Assembly (NCBI RefSeq): GCF_014695395.1
Contig: NZ_JACJOF010000025.1
Span: 1 to 64,000 of the forward strand
Source of the DNA: Nodosilinea sp. FACHB-131
GTDB lineage: Bacteria; Cyanobacteriota; Cyanobacteriia; Phormidesmidales; Phormidesmidaceae
DNA length: 64,000 nt
Reading direction: 5' to 3'
A program made the translations under genes and the position numbers. Numbering within the stretch: the stretch's first letter is position 1; every line of letters starts with the position of its first letter. The notes under the pieces were generated by a model that saw nothing but the letters and a program-made list of their open reading frames with translations, was not told where the DNA came from and searched no databases. This document shows positions 43,994 through 59,879 of this stretch, one piece after another.

Positions 43994-44479
43994 CTAGATG
44001 TCAGAACCGCTGGCGGGTTCCGCGCCCATGCCAAGGGCAGCGTCGCGCAGAAAGGTAATTTGCTCTTCGAAGCCCATGGTTTCTAGAGCAGCCAGCAGGT
44101 CTTGCCCCTGGTTAGAAAGCTCATAGTCGTCGGGCATCGGGATAATCTCACCACTATCCATACCTTGGGCCAGGTAGTACCAAAAAGCCAGTTTTGTGTT
44201 GGCGCTCAAAGAGCCATACTCTCGGCTGATTTGGTTAGAGGCATCGCATCGTGCGATCGCCCGCATGGTGTCAAGCTGCTTTTGCTGATCTACCTCTTTG
44301 ACCTGGTTGTAAAGACCATTGGCAATTTCAGGGGATGCAGAGCCAGGCGCAGCAGGCGTGATGCGCTCTCCCATCTCCTCGTAGACAAACCACAGCAGTG
44401 CTAGTTGCGCATCTGTATCTAAGCTTTTAAAGACATTCAGAGCCTGGTTAGGGTCGTTAGCGGTTGTGTAAGCAGTCAT
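43994..44479 (-). CDS. Helical carotenoid protein (OCP N-terminal-domain homologue)
   Basis: 161-aa all-helical protein homologous to the N-terminal domain of orange carotenoid protein; such proteins bind ketocarotenoids and quench singlet oxygen and, in some paralogues, phycobilisome excitation. Landmarks are LDTDAQLALLWFVYEEMG, ITPAAPGSASPEIANGLYNQV and LSANTKLAFWYYLAQGM. The C-terminal regulatory domain of OCP is missing, so it should be constitutively carotenoid-bound or need a separate CTD homologue. The ATG at 44479 follows AAGGATTTTTT; longer in-frame starts to 44590 add unrelated residues. Confidence 0.93.
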   Translation of the reverse strand: MTAYTTANDPNQALNVFKSLDTDAQLALLWFVYEEMGERITPAAPGSASPEIANGLYNQVKEVDQQKQLDTMRAIARCDASNQISREYGSLSANTKLAFWYYLAQGMDSGEIIPMPDDYELSNQGQDLLAALETMGFEEQITFLRDAALGMGAEPASGSDI

Positions 44480-44883
44480 AAAAAATCCTTTTGTTGCAGC
44501 TTGTACAGGTGGCCCCAAAAAGCACGCTTTAGCAGTAAAGTCCGAACTCTGAGCCATCACCTGCAACTTAACGGAGGATTGAATCCGCATCCTCCTGCTA
44601 GGGCTATAGTCGAGGCTATGCCAGTGGATGGGTAAAGGTATTTAACGGTGATCCCGACCGTCTACTGCTGCTGCCGCGATCGCTTGTATCGTAGGCGTTG
44701 TGCGGTTTAACAGAGGGCTAAGCCATCTTTCAAAATTAGCCGGAAAAGATTTTGCACTTCAGCGTTGTATCTCAACCCAAAAATCGTTGCGCTTTCAGAC
44801 ACGTTCTACCCTATGGTTCTACTCGATCGCTGAAAGATTTCTTAACTTGAAGAAGCCTATCGCTAAATCAGGAGGAATATTTC
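44480..44883. promoter_or_regulatory. Divergent promoter region of hcp and hdeD-like genes
   Basis: 404 bp between divergent helical carotenoid protein and HdeD-like genes. Both are stress-related, so shared control is plausible. It contains HIP1-like sequence near 44677 but no clear -35/-10 pair or palindrome that I can defend. Confidence 0.35.
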
Positions 44884-50172: not shown

Positions 50173-52098
50173 ATGCCGTCTTTCACCCCCTTCGACCGGG
50201 CTCAACCCCGGGCGGCCTACATCACCCACATCGGCAAATGTCTACCAGGAGAGCCGATCGCCAACGATGAGATGGAAGCCTACCTGGGCCAGGTGGGCGA
50301 TCGCCCCTCCCGAGTCAAGGCCCGCATTCTCAAAAGCAACGGCATTCAGCAGCGCTACTATGCCCTCGATCGCCAGCAGCAGACTACCCTCAGCAATAGC
50401 CAGATGGCGGCAGCAGCGGTGCGAGACACCCTGACCCAGGCTGAGCTAGACCCCAAGACCATTGACCTGTTGGCCTGCGCCACCACCTGGCCCGACCTAC
50501 TGGTGCCGGGCTTTGCCAGTATGGTGCATGGGGAGCTGCCGGAGCTGGCCTCGGTAGAGGCGACCTCTCACCAGGGGGTGTGCTGCGCTGGCGTGGCAGC
50601 GCTCAAATACGTGGCGGCCCAGGTGCAGCTGGGTCAAAAGCGGCAGGCGATCGCGGTGTCCTCAGAACTGGCCTCGCGGTTGTTTAAGCACACTCGGTTT
50701 GAGGCCGAAACCGCCCATCGGGCGGGGGCTGCCCTGCCCTTCGACACCGAGTTTCTGCGGTGGATGCTGTCGGACGGCGCGGGGGCATGCTTGGTCAGCG
50801 ATCGCCCCAGCGCCAGCGGCCTCAGCCTCAAAGTCGAGTGGATTGAGTCGGTCTCCCACGCCAATTCCCATCCGCTGTGCATGTATGCCGGGGTCGATAG
50901 CCCCACAGCGCTGACCAGCTGGATGGATTTTCCTAACCAAGGGGCGGCGGCAGCGGCGGGAGCGCTCAACCTGCGCCAAAATATTCGTCTGCTCGACCAG
51001 GTGGTGCAGCTGGGCGTAGAGGGCTGGATCAGGCTAATCGAAGCTGGTCGGGTGCACCCCGACCAGGTGGACTGGCTGCTGTGCCACTACTCGTCACATT
51101 TCTTTCGCAGTCAAATCATCAATCTGCTCGAACAGGCGGGCTGCATGATTCCTGAGGAGCGGTGGTTTACCAACCTCTACACCCGGGGCAACACCGGCTG
51201 CGCCTCAATCTACCTGATGCTGGAGGAGTTGTTTAACTCGGGCAAGCTGCGAGCAGGGCAGCAGATCTTTTGCTTTGTGCCCGAAAGTGGCCGGTTCACC
51301 ACCGCCTACCTGCTGCTGACGGTGGTGGAGGCAACTGGGCCAAGCCAAGGTTCTAACCCCACGCTGCTGCCGGCCACTGCGGCGATCGCCCCCCCTGACT
51401 GTTCCCCCTCGCCAACCACTGCCCTGGAAGCCGAAACCGAGTCTACGGTCTCTGAAGCGCTGTTGCGCCAGCTGATGCTGGTGTGGCTGACCTTTGAGCG
51501 AGAGCTGCGGTCTGTCCCCATCGTCAGGCGACTGCACCGGGGGGAGTTTACCCTCGCCGACTACCGAGCACTGCTGCGGGCCTTGCGCCCCCAGGTGGTC
51601 GATGGTGCCCGGTGGATTGCCCGGGCCGCGTCGAATATGACCGACTTTGAGCTGCGATCGCACCTGATCGGCCACGCCCGCGACGAGCACCGCGACTTTC
51701 AGATGCTGGAGCGCGACTACGTCTCGGTCGGAGGACAGCTCGAAGAGATTCTGGAGGCTGAGCAAAACCTTGGTTCAGAGGCCCTGTCTGCCTTTATTTT
51801 TCAGCGCGCCTCCCGCGAAAACCCGATTGATCTACTGGGCAGCATCTTCATTGTAGAAGGGCTGGGCAACCGCATGGCCGGCCAGTGGGCCGCACTGATT
51901 CAACAGAGCCTGGGATTAGATAAGACCCAGATCTCCTTCCTCAACTATCACGGCGAGAACGACGAGGCCCATGTGCAAAAGCTCGATGCCTTTCTCAATG
52001 CCGACTGGATGACGGCGGCGATCGCTGCCCGCATTGTCAAAACGGCTCAAGTCACCGCCCGCCTGTACCGCCTGCAACTGGAAGAGATTGACCTATGA
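50173..52098 (+). CDS. KAS III-like condensing enzyme fused to a heme-oxygenase-like diiron oxidase
   Basis: 641-aa fusion. Residues about 1-385 are a FabH/KAS III-type thiolase-fold enzyme with triad Cys138 (CCAG), His305 (LLCHYSSHFF) and Asn340 (RGNTGCAS). A Pro/Thr/Ser linker (about 386-425) leads to a heme-oxygenase-like domain (HDO) at 430-640. It carries the HDO ligand pattern His593-x3-Asp597-x2-His600 (YHGENDEAH), Glu562 (VEGLGNR), a DEH cluster (504-506) and Glu442/444. Known HDOs include UndA (fatty-acid oxidative decarboxylation to alkenes), CADD and SznF. The pairing suggests condensation of an acyl thioester followed by oxidation, product unknown. The stop overlaps the next ATG by 4 bp. 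Confidence 0.88.
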   Translation: MPSFTPFDRAQPRAAYITHIGKCLPGEPIANDEMEAYLGQVGDRPSRVKARILKSNGIQQRYYALDRQQQTTLSNSQMAAAAVRDTLTQAELDPKTIDLLACATTWPDLLVPGFASMVHGELPELASVEATSHQGVCCAGVAALKYVAAQVQLGQKRQAIAVSSELASRLFKHTRFEAETAHRAGAALPFDTEFLRWMLSDGAGACLVSDRPSASGLSLKVEWIESVSHANSHPLCMYAGVDSPTALTSWMDFPNQGAAAAAGALNLRQNIRLLDQVVQLGVEGWIRLIEAGRVHPDQVDWLLCHYSSHFFRSQIINLLEQAGCMIPEERWFTNLYTRGNTGCASIYLMLEELFNSGKLRAGQQIFCFVPESGRFTTAYLLLTVVEATGPSQGSNPTLLPATAAIAPPDCSPSPTTALEAETESTVSEALLRQLMLVWLTFERELRSVPIVRRLHRGEFTLADYRALLRALRPQVVDGARWIARAASNMTDFELRSHLIGHARDEHRDFQMLERDYVSVGGQLEEILEAEQNLGSEALSAFIFQRASRENPIDLLGSIFIVEGLGNRMAGQWAALIQQSLGLDKTQISFLNYHGENDEAHVQKLDAFLNADWMTAAIAARIVKTAQVTARLYRLQLEEIDL

Positions 52099-53003
52099 CC
52101 CACACCCCCGTGCCCCACAACCGGCAAGACCCCAGCTACTGGGATGCCATCTATGCCGACTGGGCCATTCCCCTCGACCCCACCGCTAAGGCCTACATGG
52201 TCAAAGACCTACAAAGCTGGTCGCGCTGCTACCTGCTGCTGCCGATCAAGCTCTTCGCCAACCTGGCCATGGCCCTGATTATGACGCTCAAGCGGCTCTT
52301 ACCGTTTCAGTTTCGCAACTACTGGCTGATGCACCAACTGGCAGTGAGGTTTCTTAACACCTTCACCACCCCCGAAGCCTGCTACCTGATCGTGCGCCAC
52401 TTTGCCATCGGCTCTAACATCGTCAATTTTTTAATCGACAATGGCCCCGACCCGACCCTGCCCCACGCCACGCTCTACCCTCGCCGGGTAGAAGACCTGG
52501 CCGCCAACGCCTTTTTAGAGCACGACATCAACCTCTACAACTTTGTGCTCGACTACCACCGCGCCCAAGCGCAGCACCCTAACTGGCTAGAGACTGTGCA
52601 TCAGCGAGGGCTCAGCTATGACGGCATTCGCCCTGTGTCGGTCGAGATCGACATCAGCCGACGGGGCTGGCTCCAGGTGCTCGATATGGAGTCCTCCCTA
52701 GAGCTGTTCAAAATCTGCTATTCCCTCTGGGTCACCAGCGACGAGTTTGAGCGGGCGGTGCTTTCCCTTCAGTTTGACGAAAGCTTTGCCCTCTACTTTA
52801 GCCGGGTCACTGGCGACTACGCCTGGAACCACACCGTGACAAACCGTCATCCCCTGGCTCCTAACAGCTTCTTTGGGGCAGCCCGCAACCTGCTGCTGCA
52901 CGGTCTGGCCTCGGAGTCGCTCCAGCGCTATCTGGAGCTAGCTATGGCAGATAGCGGCCCTGAGGCTCAAGCGGCTGTCGCCATGAACCGCGTTGCTCCC
53001 TAG
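52095..53003 (+). CDS. Partner protein of the KAS III-oxidase, unknown family
   Basis: 302-aa protein overlapping the upstream fusion gene by ATGA, so the two are translated together. Residues about 45-95 are hydrophobic and helical (LLLPIKLFANLAMALIMTLK), possibly membrane-associating. The rest is helical, with NAFLEHDINLYNFVLDYHRAQ and SVEIDISRRGWLQVL. I cannot assign a family. Tight coupling implies a shared pathway or complex, perhaps membrane delivery of a lipid substrate or product (inference). Confidence 0.7.
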   Translation: MTHTPVPHNRQDPSYWDAIYADWAIPLDPTAKAYMVKDLQSWSRCYLLLPIKLFANLAMALIMTLKRLLPFQFRNYWLMHQLAVRFLNTFTTPEACYLIVRHFAIGSNIVNFLIDNGPDPTLPHATLYPRRVEDLAANAFLEHDINLYNFVLDYHRAQAQHPNWLETVHQRGLSYDGIRPVSVEIDISRRGWLQVLDMESSLELFKICYSLWVTSDEFERAVLSLQFDESFALYFSRVTGDYAWNHTVTNRHPLAPNSFFGAARNLLLHGLASESLQRYLELAMADSGPEAQAAVAMNRVAP

Positions 53004-53086: not shown

Positions 53087-54904
53087 ATGCCCATCCTCCA
53101 TCAAATCTGGGATAACAGCCACTTCTTCGCGGGCAGTGATGATCCCCAAATCGCCGCCACGGTTGAGCGGATCAGAGCGGAAATCGACACTTTATCTACC
53201 CTCTGCGCTCCGTTCATCGAGCATATCGAACCGGCCGAACCCCTAACTCAGGAAAAGTTTGAGGGTTTGCTGGCTCAAGTTAGAACTGCCCACCAGCAGC
53301 GTACCGACATCGCCAAACGTCTGGGGAACCTGCGTACCTTTATCTCCTCTATTCTCAGCGTTGACTCCCGCGATGCCAGTGCCAGCGAGTGGAAACCCAC
53401 CCTACAACAGCTCAGTGCCGAAATTAGCCAAGCCACCAAAGCCTTAGACATTTTTCTGCTGCGGGTTGACGACGCCTTCATCAAAGCCTTGACCGCCGAT
53501 CCGGTTCTCGAAGAGCTGAGTTTCTCCCTGCTGCACCAGCGTCAGCTCAACGATCAGCTGCTCAGTCTAGCCGAAGAAAAGCTGATCACCGGCCTGGCCG
53601 TCAACGGTCTGCAAGGCTGGGGCAACCTCTATACCGAGTTATCGGGCACCCTGCAATGCACCGTAGACGGCAGCCCTGTGGGGTTGGCCAAAGCCTCTAA
53701 CCTGCTCAGCTCCCCCGATCGCACCCTGCGCTCTGAGGCCTGGCACGGGGTTAACGCCGCCTGGGAGAGTCGGGCCGAGACGGTGGCGGCTGTTCTCAAC
53801 GCCATCAACGGCTGGCGGCTAGAAGAAACCAAACAGCGATCGCACCACCGCAGCCTGCACTACCTCGACAAAAGCTGCCACCAAAACCGCATCGATCGCG
53901 GCACCCTCGACGCCATGATGGAAGCTACCTATCAGCGGCGTCACCTCGGCCAGCGCGCCCTAACGGCGATGGGCAAAGTGCTCGAAATCCAGCCCATGGC
54001 CCCCTGGGATTTGTTTGCTCCACCCCCAGCAGCAGGCCAGAGCGAGGGAGTTTCCTTTGAGGCGGCGATCGAGCTGGTTGCCAACGCCTTTCGCCAGTTC
54101 AGCCCCGCCATGGGCGACTTTGCGATGATGATGGCCGAAAAGGGCTGGATTGACGCCCAACCGACCCCCAACCGGGCCACGGGGGCCTACTGCACCAGCT
54201 TTGCCGAGCCCAAGGAACCGCGCGTTTTTATGACCTTTGAGGGCAGCATGAACAACGTGCTGACTCTGGCTCACGAACTGGGCCATGCCTGGCACAACTG
54301 GGTGATGCAGGATCTGCCCCGCTACAAAACCTTTTACCCCATGACCCTGGCCGAAACCGCCAGCATCTTTGGCGAAACCCTGGTACGCGATGCCCTGTTT
54401 GAGCAGGCCAGCACCCCCGAGCAAAAGCTCAAGATTGCATGGGAAGAAGGGTCCGCCGCGGCCACGTTCTTGCTCAATATTCCAGCTCGGTTCACCTTTG
54501 AGCAAAAACTGGTTGAGGCCCGCAAGCAGGGGTTTGTGATTGCCGACAACCTCAGGACCATGATGCGCGACAGCTGGCAGCACTGGTATGAAGATAGCCT
54601 GGCCAGCTACGATGACATGTTTTGGGCCAGCAAGCTGCACTTCTCGATCGCAGAGCTGGGCTTCTACAACTATCCCTACCTGTTCGGCTATCTGTTTAGC
54701 CTGGGCATCTACGCCCAAAAAGACCACTACGGCGCTCAGTTCAACGATCTCTACACCAAGCTGCTGCGCGACACCGGCAGCATGACAGCGGAGGATGTGG
54801 TGCTGCGCCACCTCCAGCAAGACATTCGCCAACCCGCATTTTGGCAGGCCAGTTTAGACATTGTCGATCGCGCCGTCAGCCGATTAGAAAGCCTGGTGGT
54901 GTAG
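53087..54904 (+). CDS. M3-family oligoendopeptidase (PepF-like)
   Basis: 605-aa zinc metallopeptidase that degrades oligopeptides. The gluzincin motif is TLAHELGHAWHN, and the third zinc ligand Glu lies in AETASIFGE, with the downstream GFYNYPYLFGYLFSLGIY typical of PepF. Length is normal (about 600). No signal peptide, so it is cytoplasmic. It follows the KAS III-oxidase operon by 83 bp, but functional linkage is unlikely. Confidence 0.93.
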   Translation: MPILHQIWDNSHFFAGSDDPQIAATVERIRAEIDTLSTLCAPFIEHIEPAEPLTQEKFEGLLAQVRTAHQQRTDIAKRLGNLRTFISSILSVDSRDASASEWKPTLQQLSAEISQATKALDIFLLRVDDAFIKALTADPVLEELSFSLLHQRQLNDQLLSLAEEKLITGLAVNGLQGWGNLYTELSGTLQCTVDGSPVGLAKASNLLSSPDRTLRSEAWHGVNAAWESRAETVAAVLNAINGWRLEETKQRSHHRSLHYLDKSCHQNRIDRGTLDAMMEATYQRRHLGQRALTAMGKVLEIQPMAPWDLFAPPPAAGQSEGVSFEAAIELVANAFRQFSPAMGDFAMMMAEKGWIDAQPTPNRATGAYCTSFAEPKEPRVFMTFEGSMNNVLTLAHELGHAWHNWVMQDLPRYKTFYPMTLAETASIFGETLVRDALFEQASTPEQKLKIAWEEGSAAATFLLNIPARFTFEQKLVEARKQGFVIADNLRTMMRDSWQHWYEDSLASYDDMFWASKLHFSIAELGFYNYPYLFGYLFSLGIYAQKDHYGAQFNDLYTKLLRDTGSMTAEDVVLRHLQQDIRQPAFWQASLDIVDRAVSRLESLVV

Positions 54905-58580: not shown

Positions 58581-59879
58581 ATGTTTACGCAAACCCGTAA
58601 GTTTCGCATTGGCGGTTATCAGCCGGGGCAAAAGCCGGACGACGTTAAGCATCACCAGATTGGCCGCTTTGGGAAAGAGGAGCTGCCGGGGCGGGTCGAT
58701 TTGCGCCACCACATGACTGAGGTCGAAGCGCAGGTGGGCAACAGCTGCGTGGCCAATGCCTTTGTGGGGGCCTACGAATATCTAGCTAAGCGCGATCTGG
58801 GCGATGCCGGTGACGTCAGCCGTCTGTTTGTCTACTACAACGCGCGATCGCAGACCGGCAGCCACAACGAAGACCGCGGCACCCAGATGTACTGTGCGAT
58901 CGAAACCCTGATGCAGCATGGGGCCTGCTCCGAAGACCTCTGGCCCAACGACGAAGAGCTGATCTTCACCGAGCCCGACACCGGAGCCTACGACCACGCC
59001 TCCAACTTCAAAATTATTGAAGCCGAGACCATCGACACTGACTTAGATCTCTGGCGGCATACGCTGGCTGAGGGCTACCCGATCGCCTTTGCTCTCAACA
59101 CCTTTGAATCGTTTGACGAAGCCACCCGCAACAAAGGCCGCGTGCCCCAGCCCAAGCGCTCCGACAACGTGCGCGAAACCCACGGCTGGCACGCCATGCT
59201 CTGCGTTGGCTACTCTGACAAAGACCGCTTCTTTATTGTGCGTAACTCCTGGGGGCCAGAGTGGGGCGATCGCGGCTACTGCTACATTCCCTACGACTAC
59301 ATCATCCACGACGACTACAACGGCCATGACTCTTGGATTATCAAATCCCTGAGCGAACTCGACTTTAGCGCCGAAGTTTGGGAAGAGGACGAGTCATTCT
59401 TTGCCGACGATTGCTCGCTCTTGCTCTACGACTTCTATATTCACACCGAAGACCCCGAAGGCTTTACCGACGCGATCGCGGCCCTCTGCCTCAACTACGT
59501 TGAAAGCGAAGACGACTACTACTTCGACTACGACTATAACGAAGATGAAGGCAGCCCCTACCTGCTCAACATCCTCAACTTTGACCTCAGCGTCGAAGAC
59601 GGCACCGAATTTGTCGCCGAGCTAGACGCCCTCTGCCAAGAGTATGCCGTCGATGAGTCCTACAGTTTTGGCTACGGCAGCAGCGACGAAGAGACAACCG
59701 AGGAAGACGAGGCCGGGGAGGAAGAATTCACAGAAGAGGAATCCGAGGAAGAGTACACCGACGAGGAGTCTGAGGAGGAGTACACCGACGAGGAGTCTGA
59801 GGAAGAATCCGAAGAAGAGGAAGAGGAGTATTCTGAGGAAGACGAGGAGTCCGAAGACGAGTACACCGAAGAAGAATAG
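58581..59879 (+). CDS. Papain-like (C1) cysteine protease with a Glu/Asp tail
   Basis: 432-aa protease of the papain clan. Catalytic residues are Gln51, Cys56 (QVGNSCVANAF), His204 (GWHAMLCVGY) and Asn222 (VRNSWGPEWGDRGY). There is no signal peptide or classical propeptide, so it appears cytoplasmic. Residues about 265-360 are acidic and aromatic (DDYYFDYDYNEDE); the last ~65 residues are almost all Glu, Ser, Asp and Tyr/Thr, with EESEEEYTDE-like repeats, which could bind Ca2+ or be highly charged and unstructured. The substrate is unknown. Confidence 0.9.
   Translation: MFTQTRKFRIGGYQPGQKPDDVKHHQIGRFGKEELPGRVDLRHHMTEVEAQVGNSCVANAFVGAYEYLAKRDLGDAGDVSRLFVYYNARSQTGSHNEDRGTQMYCAIETLMQHGACSEDLWPNDEELIFTEPDTGAYDHASNFKIIEAETIDTDLDLWRHTLAEGYPIAFALNTFESFDEATRNKGRVPQPKRSDNVRETHGWHAMLCVGYSDKDRFFIVRNSWGPEWGDRGYCYIPYDYIIHDDYNGHDSWIIKSLSELDFSAEVWEEDESFFADDCSLLLYDFYIHTEDPEGFTDAIAALCLNYVESEDDYYFDYDYNEDEGSPYLLNILNFDLSVEDGTEFVAELDALCQEYAVDESYSFGYGSSDEETTEEDEAGEEEFTEEESEEEYTDEESEEEYTDEESEEESEEEEEEYSEEDEESEDEYTEEE
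59690..59876 (+). repeat. Coding tandem acidic repeats
   Basis: The 3' end of the protease gene carries GAGGAATCTGAGGAAGAG-like repeats; the peptide unit EESEEEYTDE recurs with little change. Such repeat tracts expand and contract easily. The frame is intact to the stop. Confidence 0.7.

Follow-up and report, generated by a model that had tools for sequence, protein, structure and literature searches.

Organisation of the locus

The DNA analysed here (the window) is a stretch of 64,000 nucleotides from the cyanobacterium Nodosilinea sp. FACHB-131, positions 1 to 64,000 of contig NZ_JACJOF010000025.1. Its forward strand carries, at 50173..52098, a single open frame of 641 amino acids (aa) in which a DarB/StlD-like ketosynthase (KS) is joined by a linker to a heme-oxygenase-like oxidase (HDO) domain. 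The next gene on the same strand (52095..53003) encodes a 302 aa protein of the family DUF6999 (PF22523). KS, HDO and DUF6999 form a portable three-part module.

The KS domain occupies residues 15-385 (50215..51327) and the HDO domain residues 426-641 (51448..52095). The linker covers about residues 386-425 (51328..51447), and its length varies among relatives. In the predicted structure of the whole fusion (mean predicted local distance difference test score, pLDDT, 87.5; predicted template modelling score, pTM, 0.84; 37-row alignment), residues 391-422 have a pLDDT below 50 and form a disordered linker between two confidently modelled parts. Pfam recognises the KAS III-type C-terminal domain ACP_syn_III_C at residues 291-367 (37.6 bits, cut-off 26.6) and Haem_oxygenas_2 (PF14518, 'iron-containing redox enzyme') at residues 475-632 (32.5 bits, cut-off 28.9). 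The stop of the fusion gene and the start of the DUF6999 gene overlap as ATGA at 52095..52098, the 4 bp overlap pointed out in an earlier note on this DNA, which makes coupled translation of the two genes likely.

Ketosynthase domain

In the NCBIfam comparison, the KS domain matched NF005293 (StlD/DarB) over residues 15-385 with 444.3 bits (E 3.5e-133), just below the naming cut-off of 450, and NF053539 (DarB) with 389.3 bits, short of the cut-off of 550. The domain is therefore filed as DarB/StlD-like and not as DarB. A cyanobacterial stand-alone DarB taken for comparison gave 557.8 and 505.1 bits, respectively. A PDB sequence search with the fusion found StlD (5gk0) at E 3e-82 and FabH at E 3.7e-16 at best. 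The KS model overlays on StlD chain 5gk0_C with Z 51.5 and a root-mean-square deviation of 1.8 over 368 aligned residues, at 39% identity; the top structure other than StlD was AbyA1 (Z 38.3), and OleA reached Z 37.3 at most.

The earlier note had taken this part for a KAS III enzyme. The KAS III-type C-terminal domain agrees with that; a generic FabH/KAS III identity was rejected, StlD being far closer in sequence, profile and fold. The Cys-His-Asn triad that the note had also described consists of C137, H305 and N340 and is kept in 44 of 44 module KS and in all 19 stand-alone DarBs compared. The entry for the StlD H302A mutant (5gk2) shows a mismatch at the residue aligned with H305. Few positions separate module KS from stand-alone DarBs, and none of them is catalytic. 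By its homology, the KS very probably carries out DarB-type chemistry.

HDO domain and its candidate metal site

The C-terminal part of the fusion was modelled confidently as a helical domain. Structure match lists of the whole-fusion model were filled by KS entries, and the link to HDO proteins comes from a sequence profile alignment to 3dde (E 2.3e-10). In this alignment E505 falls on the Glu and D508 on the His of the 3dde E-x2-H motif, and H501 falls on a His seven residues before the histidine of that motif.

A total of 88 distinct HDO sequences were obtained from 104 module loci, of which 96 yielded a match. Seven residues, H501, E505, D508, E562, H593, D597 and H600, are invariant in 88/88. 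They include the H-x3-D-x2-H pattern with an upstream Glu read by the earlier note (H593, D597 and H600 with E562), so that the candidate ligands are kept throughout the KS-HDO relatives compared; in the tests made, neither of the outcomes that the earlier note named as refuting its reading turned up. Divergent copies from Pseudomonadota at 32-35% identity still keep all seven positions, and the neighbouring H506 (84/88) and E513 (83/88) are not fully conserved.

Characterised HDOs are reported to carry the motif E-H-E-H-(D/E)-H, and the form E-H-X-H-(D/E)-H is given to about 85% of the analysed HDO groups (PMC11363339). The module HDOs depart from it: E505, E562, H593, D597 and H600 are kept, and the second position is Asp508 in all 88 sequences. 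By count, this HDO branch has three His and four carboxylates, with the extra His501 two helix turns upstream of Asp508. The seven conserved residues are candidate metal ligands. The reported ligands of MboA are Glu86, His89, Glu143, His172, Asp176 and His181, and in one chain Fe1 is bound by Asp90, with partial occupancy for His89 (PMC13185094). Asp90 is a precedent for a carboxylate at a site like that of Asp508, though it lies one residue further on. Fe1 is reported to be ligated by substrate in five HDO structures (PMC13108848; PMC13185094).

The PF14518 match of only 32.5 bits, a split Pseudoalteromonas copy with no Pfam match at E 0.001 and the replacement of His by Asp at one ligand position would all suit a non-metal part of the protein, structural or relic. 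Such a role is very improbable, since seven His, Asp and Glu positions are invariant in every sequence down to about 32% identity. Alignment of the module HDOs to two canonical HDOs of the same genome with hhalign was weak (probability 2.1).

DUF6999 partner protein

The earlier note saw no recognised domain in the partner, which no longer holds: the protein matches PF22523, a Pfam family without assigned function, over its full length with 337.2 bits (cut-off 27). No paper on DUF6999 was found in the open-access PMC literature. The predicted structure (pLDDT 90.9, pTM 0.88) is almost entirely helix. Searches against PDB gave no convincing relative (best sequence E 0.11, Foldseek E 0.86, VIA-align Z 3.4), and this does not show a new fold. 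An alignment of 39 sequences has 23 invariant residues, and 17 remain once the Pseudoalteromonas copy is added (40 rows). R101, H102, H143, D144, D228, N250, H269 and E274 are invariant in all 40 rows, and N149, E203 and R220 only in the 39 rows before that addition. The invariant set looks like an active site. The cyanobacterial proteins have a hydrophobic helix near residues 47-65, with 19-residue means of up to 2.67, which is weaker in the others; contact with the membrane is therefore possible.

Genome G620 (loci L151 and L171) encodes a divergent DUF6999 relative (hhalign E 7.6e-5, probability 62). Its gene overlaps a gene for a DarB-like KS, and next comes one for a flavin monooxygenase-like protein (PF00743), an arrangement that may be a second version of the pathway. 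Both PF14518 and PF22523 were matched in the control genome, Caulobacter vibrioides, as presence at the genome level.

Spread and gene order of the module

The phylum was sampled with 386 evenly drawn genomes, the source genome included, and the fusion was scored at more than 60% identity over both parts. It was found in 10 genomes, with nine intact copies and one (G099) broken by stops and truncated. PF22523 scored above its cut-off in exactly the nine genomes with intact fusions. The G099 genome, with the broken fusion at locus L051, has no DUF6999 match, and both parts were apparently lost together. The nine intact-fusion genomes fall in four family groups (f1, f11, f15 and f21), and neighbouring genes differ among the groups.

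A wider set of 81 loci was made up of the best 80 of 155 relatives from a scan of named genomes with the DUF6999 alignment and of the plasmid locus of Pseudoalteromonas sp. THAF3. Being found via DUF6999, these loci test whether DUF6999 implies KS-HDO. KS, HDO and DUF6999 lie together, in this order and on one strand, at 73 of the 81 loci, with KS and HDO fused at 61 and split at 12. Split copies include those of Pseudoalteromonas and Aquisalinus. The modules belong to Cyanobacteria, Melainabacteria, Bacillota, Myxococcota, Bacteroidota and Pseudomonadota; carriers include Nodosilinea, Leptolyngbya, Microcoleus, Nostoc, a Melainabacterium, Paenibacillus koleovorans, Sorangium cellulosum, Corallococcus, Flagellimonas, Niastella, Aquisalinus and Sphingomonadales. 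Nodosilinea nodulosa PCC 7104 and Leptolyngbya sp. PCC 6406 are among the cyanobacterial strains with the module. At four of the eight loci without a local KS-HDO, a contig end cuts the upstream side of DUF6999, and KS-HDO is present elsewhere in the genome for seven of the eight.

Samples searched with family hidden Markov models gave DUF6999 in 3/247 Bacteroidota genomes (one being the chosen centre and one the divergent G620) and in 6/329 Pseudomonadota genomes (one being the chosen centre). KS and HDO lie just upstream in all eight intact DUF6999 loci of these two samples, two of which are the chosen centres. The converse also held: DUF6999 accompanies 9/9 intact fusions in the phylum sample, and the two KS-HDO genomes of the Bacteroidota sample are the two with intact DUF6999. 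This survey of co-occurrence strongly supports the earlier note's coupling of KS and HDO with the partner in one system: the pair occurs fused and split, across several phyla, and DUF6999 is rarely missing. Chance adjacency or an assembly accident behind the fusion is ruled out, because KS and HDO share one frame at 61 of the 73 loci and in nine genomes of the phylum sample, among them the source genome.

No other constant partner of the module was seen in neighbour clustering, in which open reading frames (ORFs) below 80-100 aa were unlisted. Some clusters of the 48-locus set came from G+C-rich loci and consisted of antisense or out-of-frame ORFs; they were disregarded. Near the module, L071:7105-7656 and 9 others of the 27 clustered cyanobacterial loci encode a small protein whose HDxxH stretch resembles that of Coq4, as do, by eye, L046:8071-8580 and L052:6865-7350; the Pfam match to Coq4 (E 0.07) is below the cut-off. 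PF04116 fatty-acid hydroxylase genes adjoin modules of distant bacteria (L118:11004-11675, reverse strand; L121:7273-8082; L133:7334-8065). Together with a desaturase gene at L123, these neighbours hint at modified alkyl chains.

Exchange with DarA

The 311 aa neighbour of a stand-alone cyanobacterial DarB (L054:8308-9243), which we take to be DarA from its position and its matches beside Bacteroidota DarBs, served as the DarA query; it had no match in NCBIfam at E 1e-20. Homologues were found in 6 of the 23 genomes searched, namely in all five genomes with a stand-alone DarB and in G583, and in none of the 17 module-only genomes. G583 combines a module with a stand-alone DarB, and its DarA homologue adjoins the latter. 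A DarA homologue adjoins 18 of 19 stand-alone DarBs, and none of these 19 loci has an HDO within 1.5 kb flanks. No DarA homologue was found at any of 98 module-list loci (flanks 0 to about 10 kb), a list in which some genomes occur twice and which includes one broken copy, the eight loci lacking KS-HDO nearby and two stretches from the source contig. Thus, HDO and DUF6999 seem to replace DarA.

In the KS tree, which left out L068, L112 and some near-identical fused loci, the DarA-linked DarBs group in one branch (support 97/96) that also takes in two plasmid DarBs from other contexts. The module KS fall outside this branch, and the data neither establish nor exclude that they make up one clade (approximately unbiased test, p-AU 0.349). 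Over the 44 module rows, 10 of them split, two changes between the fused and split states are needed.

DarA is listed as a DAR-aromatase in a published table (PMC3949708), and darA with darB in a foreign host is reported to give dialkylresorcinol (PMC3992019). Clusters with DarA and DarB, of the dialkylresorcinol and bartoloside-like kinds, have been described in cyanobacteria (PMC8406957). On the Streptomyces plasmid NZ_CP108315 (L182:5739-9843), genes for an acyl carrier protein (ACP), a DarB-like KS, a 321 aa protein and a FAD_binding_3 ring hydroxylase lie in a row. The 321 aa protein was compared as a possible DUF6999 relative and is not DUF6999-like.

Proposed pathway

Our tentative proposal, which we hold at slightly less than even confidence, is that the module makes an oxidised dialkyl ring lipid, the KS forming a ring product that is oxidised by HDO with DUF6999 instead of DarA. 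The product reported for DarB from a ketoacyl and an enoyl thioester is 4-carboxy-2,5-dialkylcyclohexane-1,3-dione (PMC5515871, citing Fuchs 2013). By close homology, the module KS would join a beta-ketoacyl thioester to an enoyl thioester and close the ring, giving a (4-carboxy-)2,5-dialkylcyclohexane-1,3-dione as well. Since the KS is of the type reported to make cyclohexanediones, the substrate of the oxidase is likely a ring acid or ring diketone and not a linear fatty acid.

The earlier note had envisaged an UndA-like conversion of a long-chain product to an alkene-like end product. UndA belongs to the same sequence family and offers a precedent for passing a linear long-chain product to a decarboxylase that yields a hydrocarbon. 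This outcome is very improbable here: the KS is DarB/StlD-like, closer in fold to StlD (Z 51.5) than to OleA (Z 37.3 at most) and of a kind reported to close rings, and the ligand residues of the first helix depart from the HDO norm, the canonical His being absent. An aromatic lipid is the more likely product, and the UndA-type oxidative decarboxylation in the note would itself give one if it acted on the ring acid.

Fusion, synteny and partner exchange suggest that the tethered HDO would use O2 at a dimetal site to remove two electrons from the ring product, thus filling the oxidising role that is taken to be DarA's elsewhere. That the HDO acts on the KS product is probable; net aromatisation by the module is a guess of about the same standing as the proposal as a whole. 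If the route leads to an aromatic lipid, the end product is probably of dialkylresorcinol type. A resorcinol would require both loss of CO2 and loss of two electrons from the 4-carboxy ring. In UndA, desaturation is reported to be coupled to CO2 loss, with the substrate carboxylate on Fe1 (PMC13108848; PMC13185094). Chemistry of this kind would be the simplest: loss of the C5 hydrogen and the C4 carboxylate would leave a C4=C5 double bond, and tautomerisation would give the 2,5-dialkylresorcinol. Aromatisation by oxidative decarboxylation is a doubtful suggestion at this stage. From co-occurrence, DUF6999 as the near-constant third part may catalyse a further step or may be a membrane-docking, ACP-docking or hand-over subunit. 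The fullest version, an O2-dependent dimetal aromatase in which the Asp-for-His HDO would aromatise the ring acid of its own fused KS by oxidative decarboxylation, helped by a catalytic DUF6999 of unsolved fold, is more speculative still.

Two further roles for the HDO were considered. As a ring oxygenase, it would hydroxylate the cyclohexanedione or resorcinol to give hydroxyresorcinol or quinone-type lipids. Flavin monooxygenase genes at two DarB-like KS loci (PF00743 in G620 and FAD_binding_3 on NZ_CP108315) fit this idea, and the extra-carboxylate site recalls the 3H/4C site reported for the N-oxygenase SznF (PMC13108848). Ring hydroxylation is not among the HDO reactions named in the consulted review text, and with no DarA homologue in 17/17 module-only genomes another protein must remove the two electrons if the product is aromatic; we consider this role unlikely. 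Alternatively, the HDO could act before ring closure on the fatty acyl partner, for example making an enoyl or chain-modified substrate for the KS. HDOs such as UndA use and desaturate fatty acids, and the fatty-acid hydroxylase (L118, L121, L133) or desaturase (L123) genes beside some modules would suit such a step. Enoyl and ketoacyl thioesters are already supplied by ordinary fatty acid synthesis, and the exchange with DarA would be left unexplained, which makes an action before ring closure decidedly unlikely.

Several observations weigh against oxidation of the KS ring product by HDO with DUF6999. The substrate, product and metal assignments are predictions from sequence, and the decarboxylation step assumes that the 4-carboxylate lasts until the HDO acts. 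Asp508 stands in place of the canonical Fe1 His, which may mean a site with another mode of action or with a single metal. The NF005293 score of the KS lies under the naming cut-off. Since DarB-like KS occur with flavin monooxygenase genes in G620 and on the Streptomyces plasmid, hydroxylation instead of aromatisation is possible. No HDO was matched at the DUF6999-like and KS locus of G620 (L171), so the role of DUF6999 may be tied to the KS reaction and not to the HDO. The stand-alone DarB of L169 has no adjacent DarA. DUF6999 is unlinked from KS-HDO in L084, L107 and L109, and the L107 genome has the fusion in pieces with a stop. No KS-HDO match was found for L119, a metagenome-assembled genome whose DUF6999 is truncated. 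At L123 the genes for HDO and DUF6999 are separated by a desaturase gene (PF00487, 7626-8504), and a stop or frame change divides KS from HDO in L068 and L112, which belong to otherwise fused cyanobacterial lineages. Finally, the clustered loci show no constant ACP or precursor gene beside the module; with ORFs below the listing limit, a small ACP next to the module could be missed.

The module places DUF6999 in a testable setting, and likewise an HDO branch whose ligand set is unusual. It also leads us to expect a pathway to resorcinols or ring lipids in many filamentous cyanobacteria, and in other bacteria, where no DarA was found. If the proposal is right, searches for DarA/DarB pairs would misread the module, HDO chemistry would extend to carbocycles, and the two genes would provide a cassette for dialkylresorcinol production. 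An O2-dependent dimetal aromatase would moreover represent a second, unrelated dialkylresorcinol route and a new HDO reaction.

Other genes of the window

The M3 oligopeptidase gene downstream (53087-54904) was rejected as a member of the system. It was present in none of the other loci in the first neighbourhood clustering, and no such gene was among the clusters found in at least three of 48 loci in the second. The sole Pfam match of the reverse-strand gene at 43994-44590 is the orange carotenoid protein N-terminal domain (PF09150). In the product of the forward-strand gene at 58581-59879, a papain-family protease domain (PF00112) is followed by a C-terminal tail of repeats rich in Glu, Asp, Ser and Tyr.

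Comparison with known systems

No description of the KS-HDO-DUF6999 module came up in the open-access PMC literature searched, including that on heme oxygenase-like proteins with dialkylresorcinol; fused heme oxygenase-like diiron proteins and ketosynthases led to work on chalkophomycin, and the words ketosynthase, fusion and resorcinol do not occur in a 2026 HDO review. The closest known systems are the DarA/DarB dialkylresorcinol systems (flexirubin, arcuflavin and bartoloside-like). Like these, the module has few genes, a StlD/DarB-type KS with the Cys-His-Asn triad and an oxidising partner; unlike them, it has HDO and DUF6999 in the place of DarA, and its KS is often fused to the oxidase. 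The KS fold is shared with StlD of stilbene synthesis (5gk0), whose solved chain of 402 residues is a KS alone. With the HDO family (UndA, SznF, BesC, MboA and CADD) the module shares PF14518, E562 and the H-x3-D-x2-H motif, and E505 takes the position of Glu86 in the Glu86-x2-His89 of MboA. It differs from this family in Asp508 for the His of E-x2-H, in the invariant His501 seven residues upstream and in the linkage to a KS. The partner is a full-length member of DUF6999, and the association of this family with a DarB-like KS is shown here.

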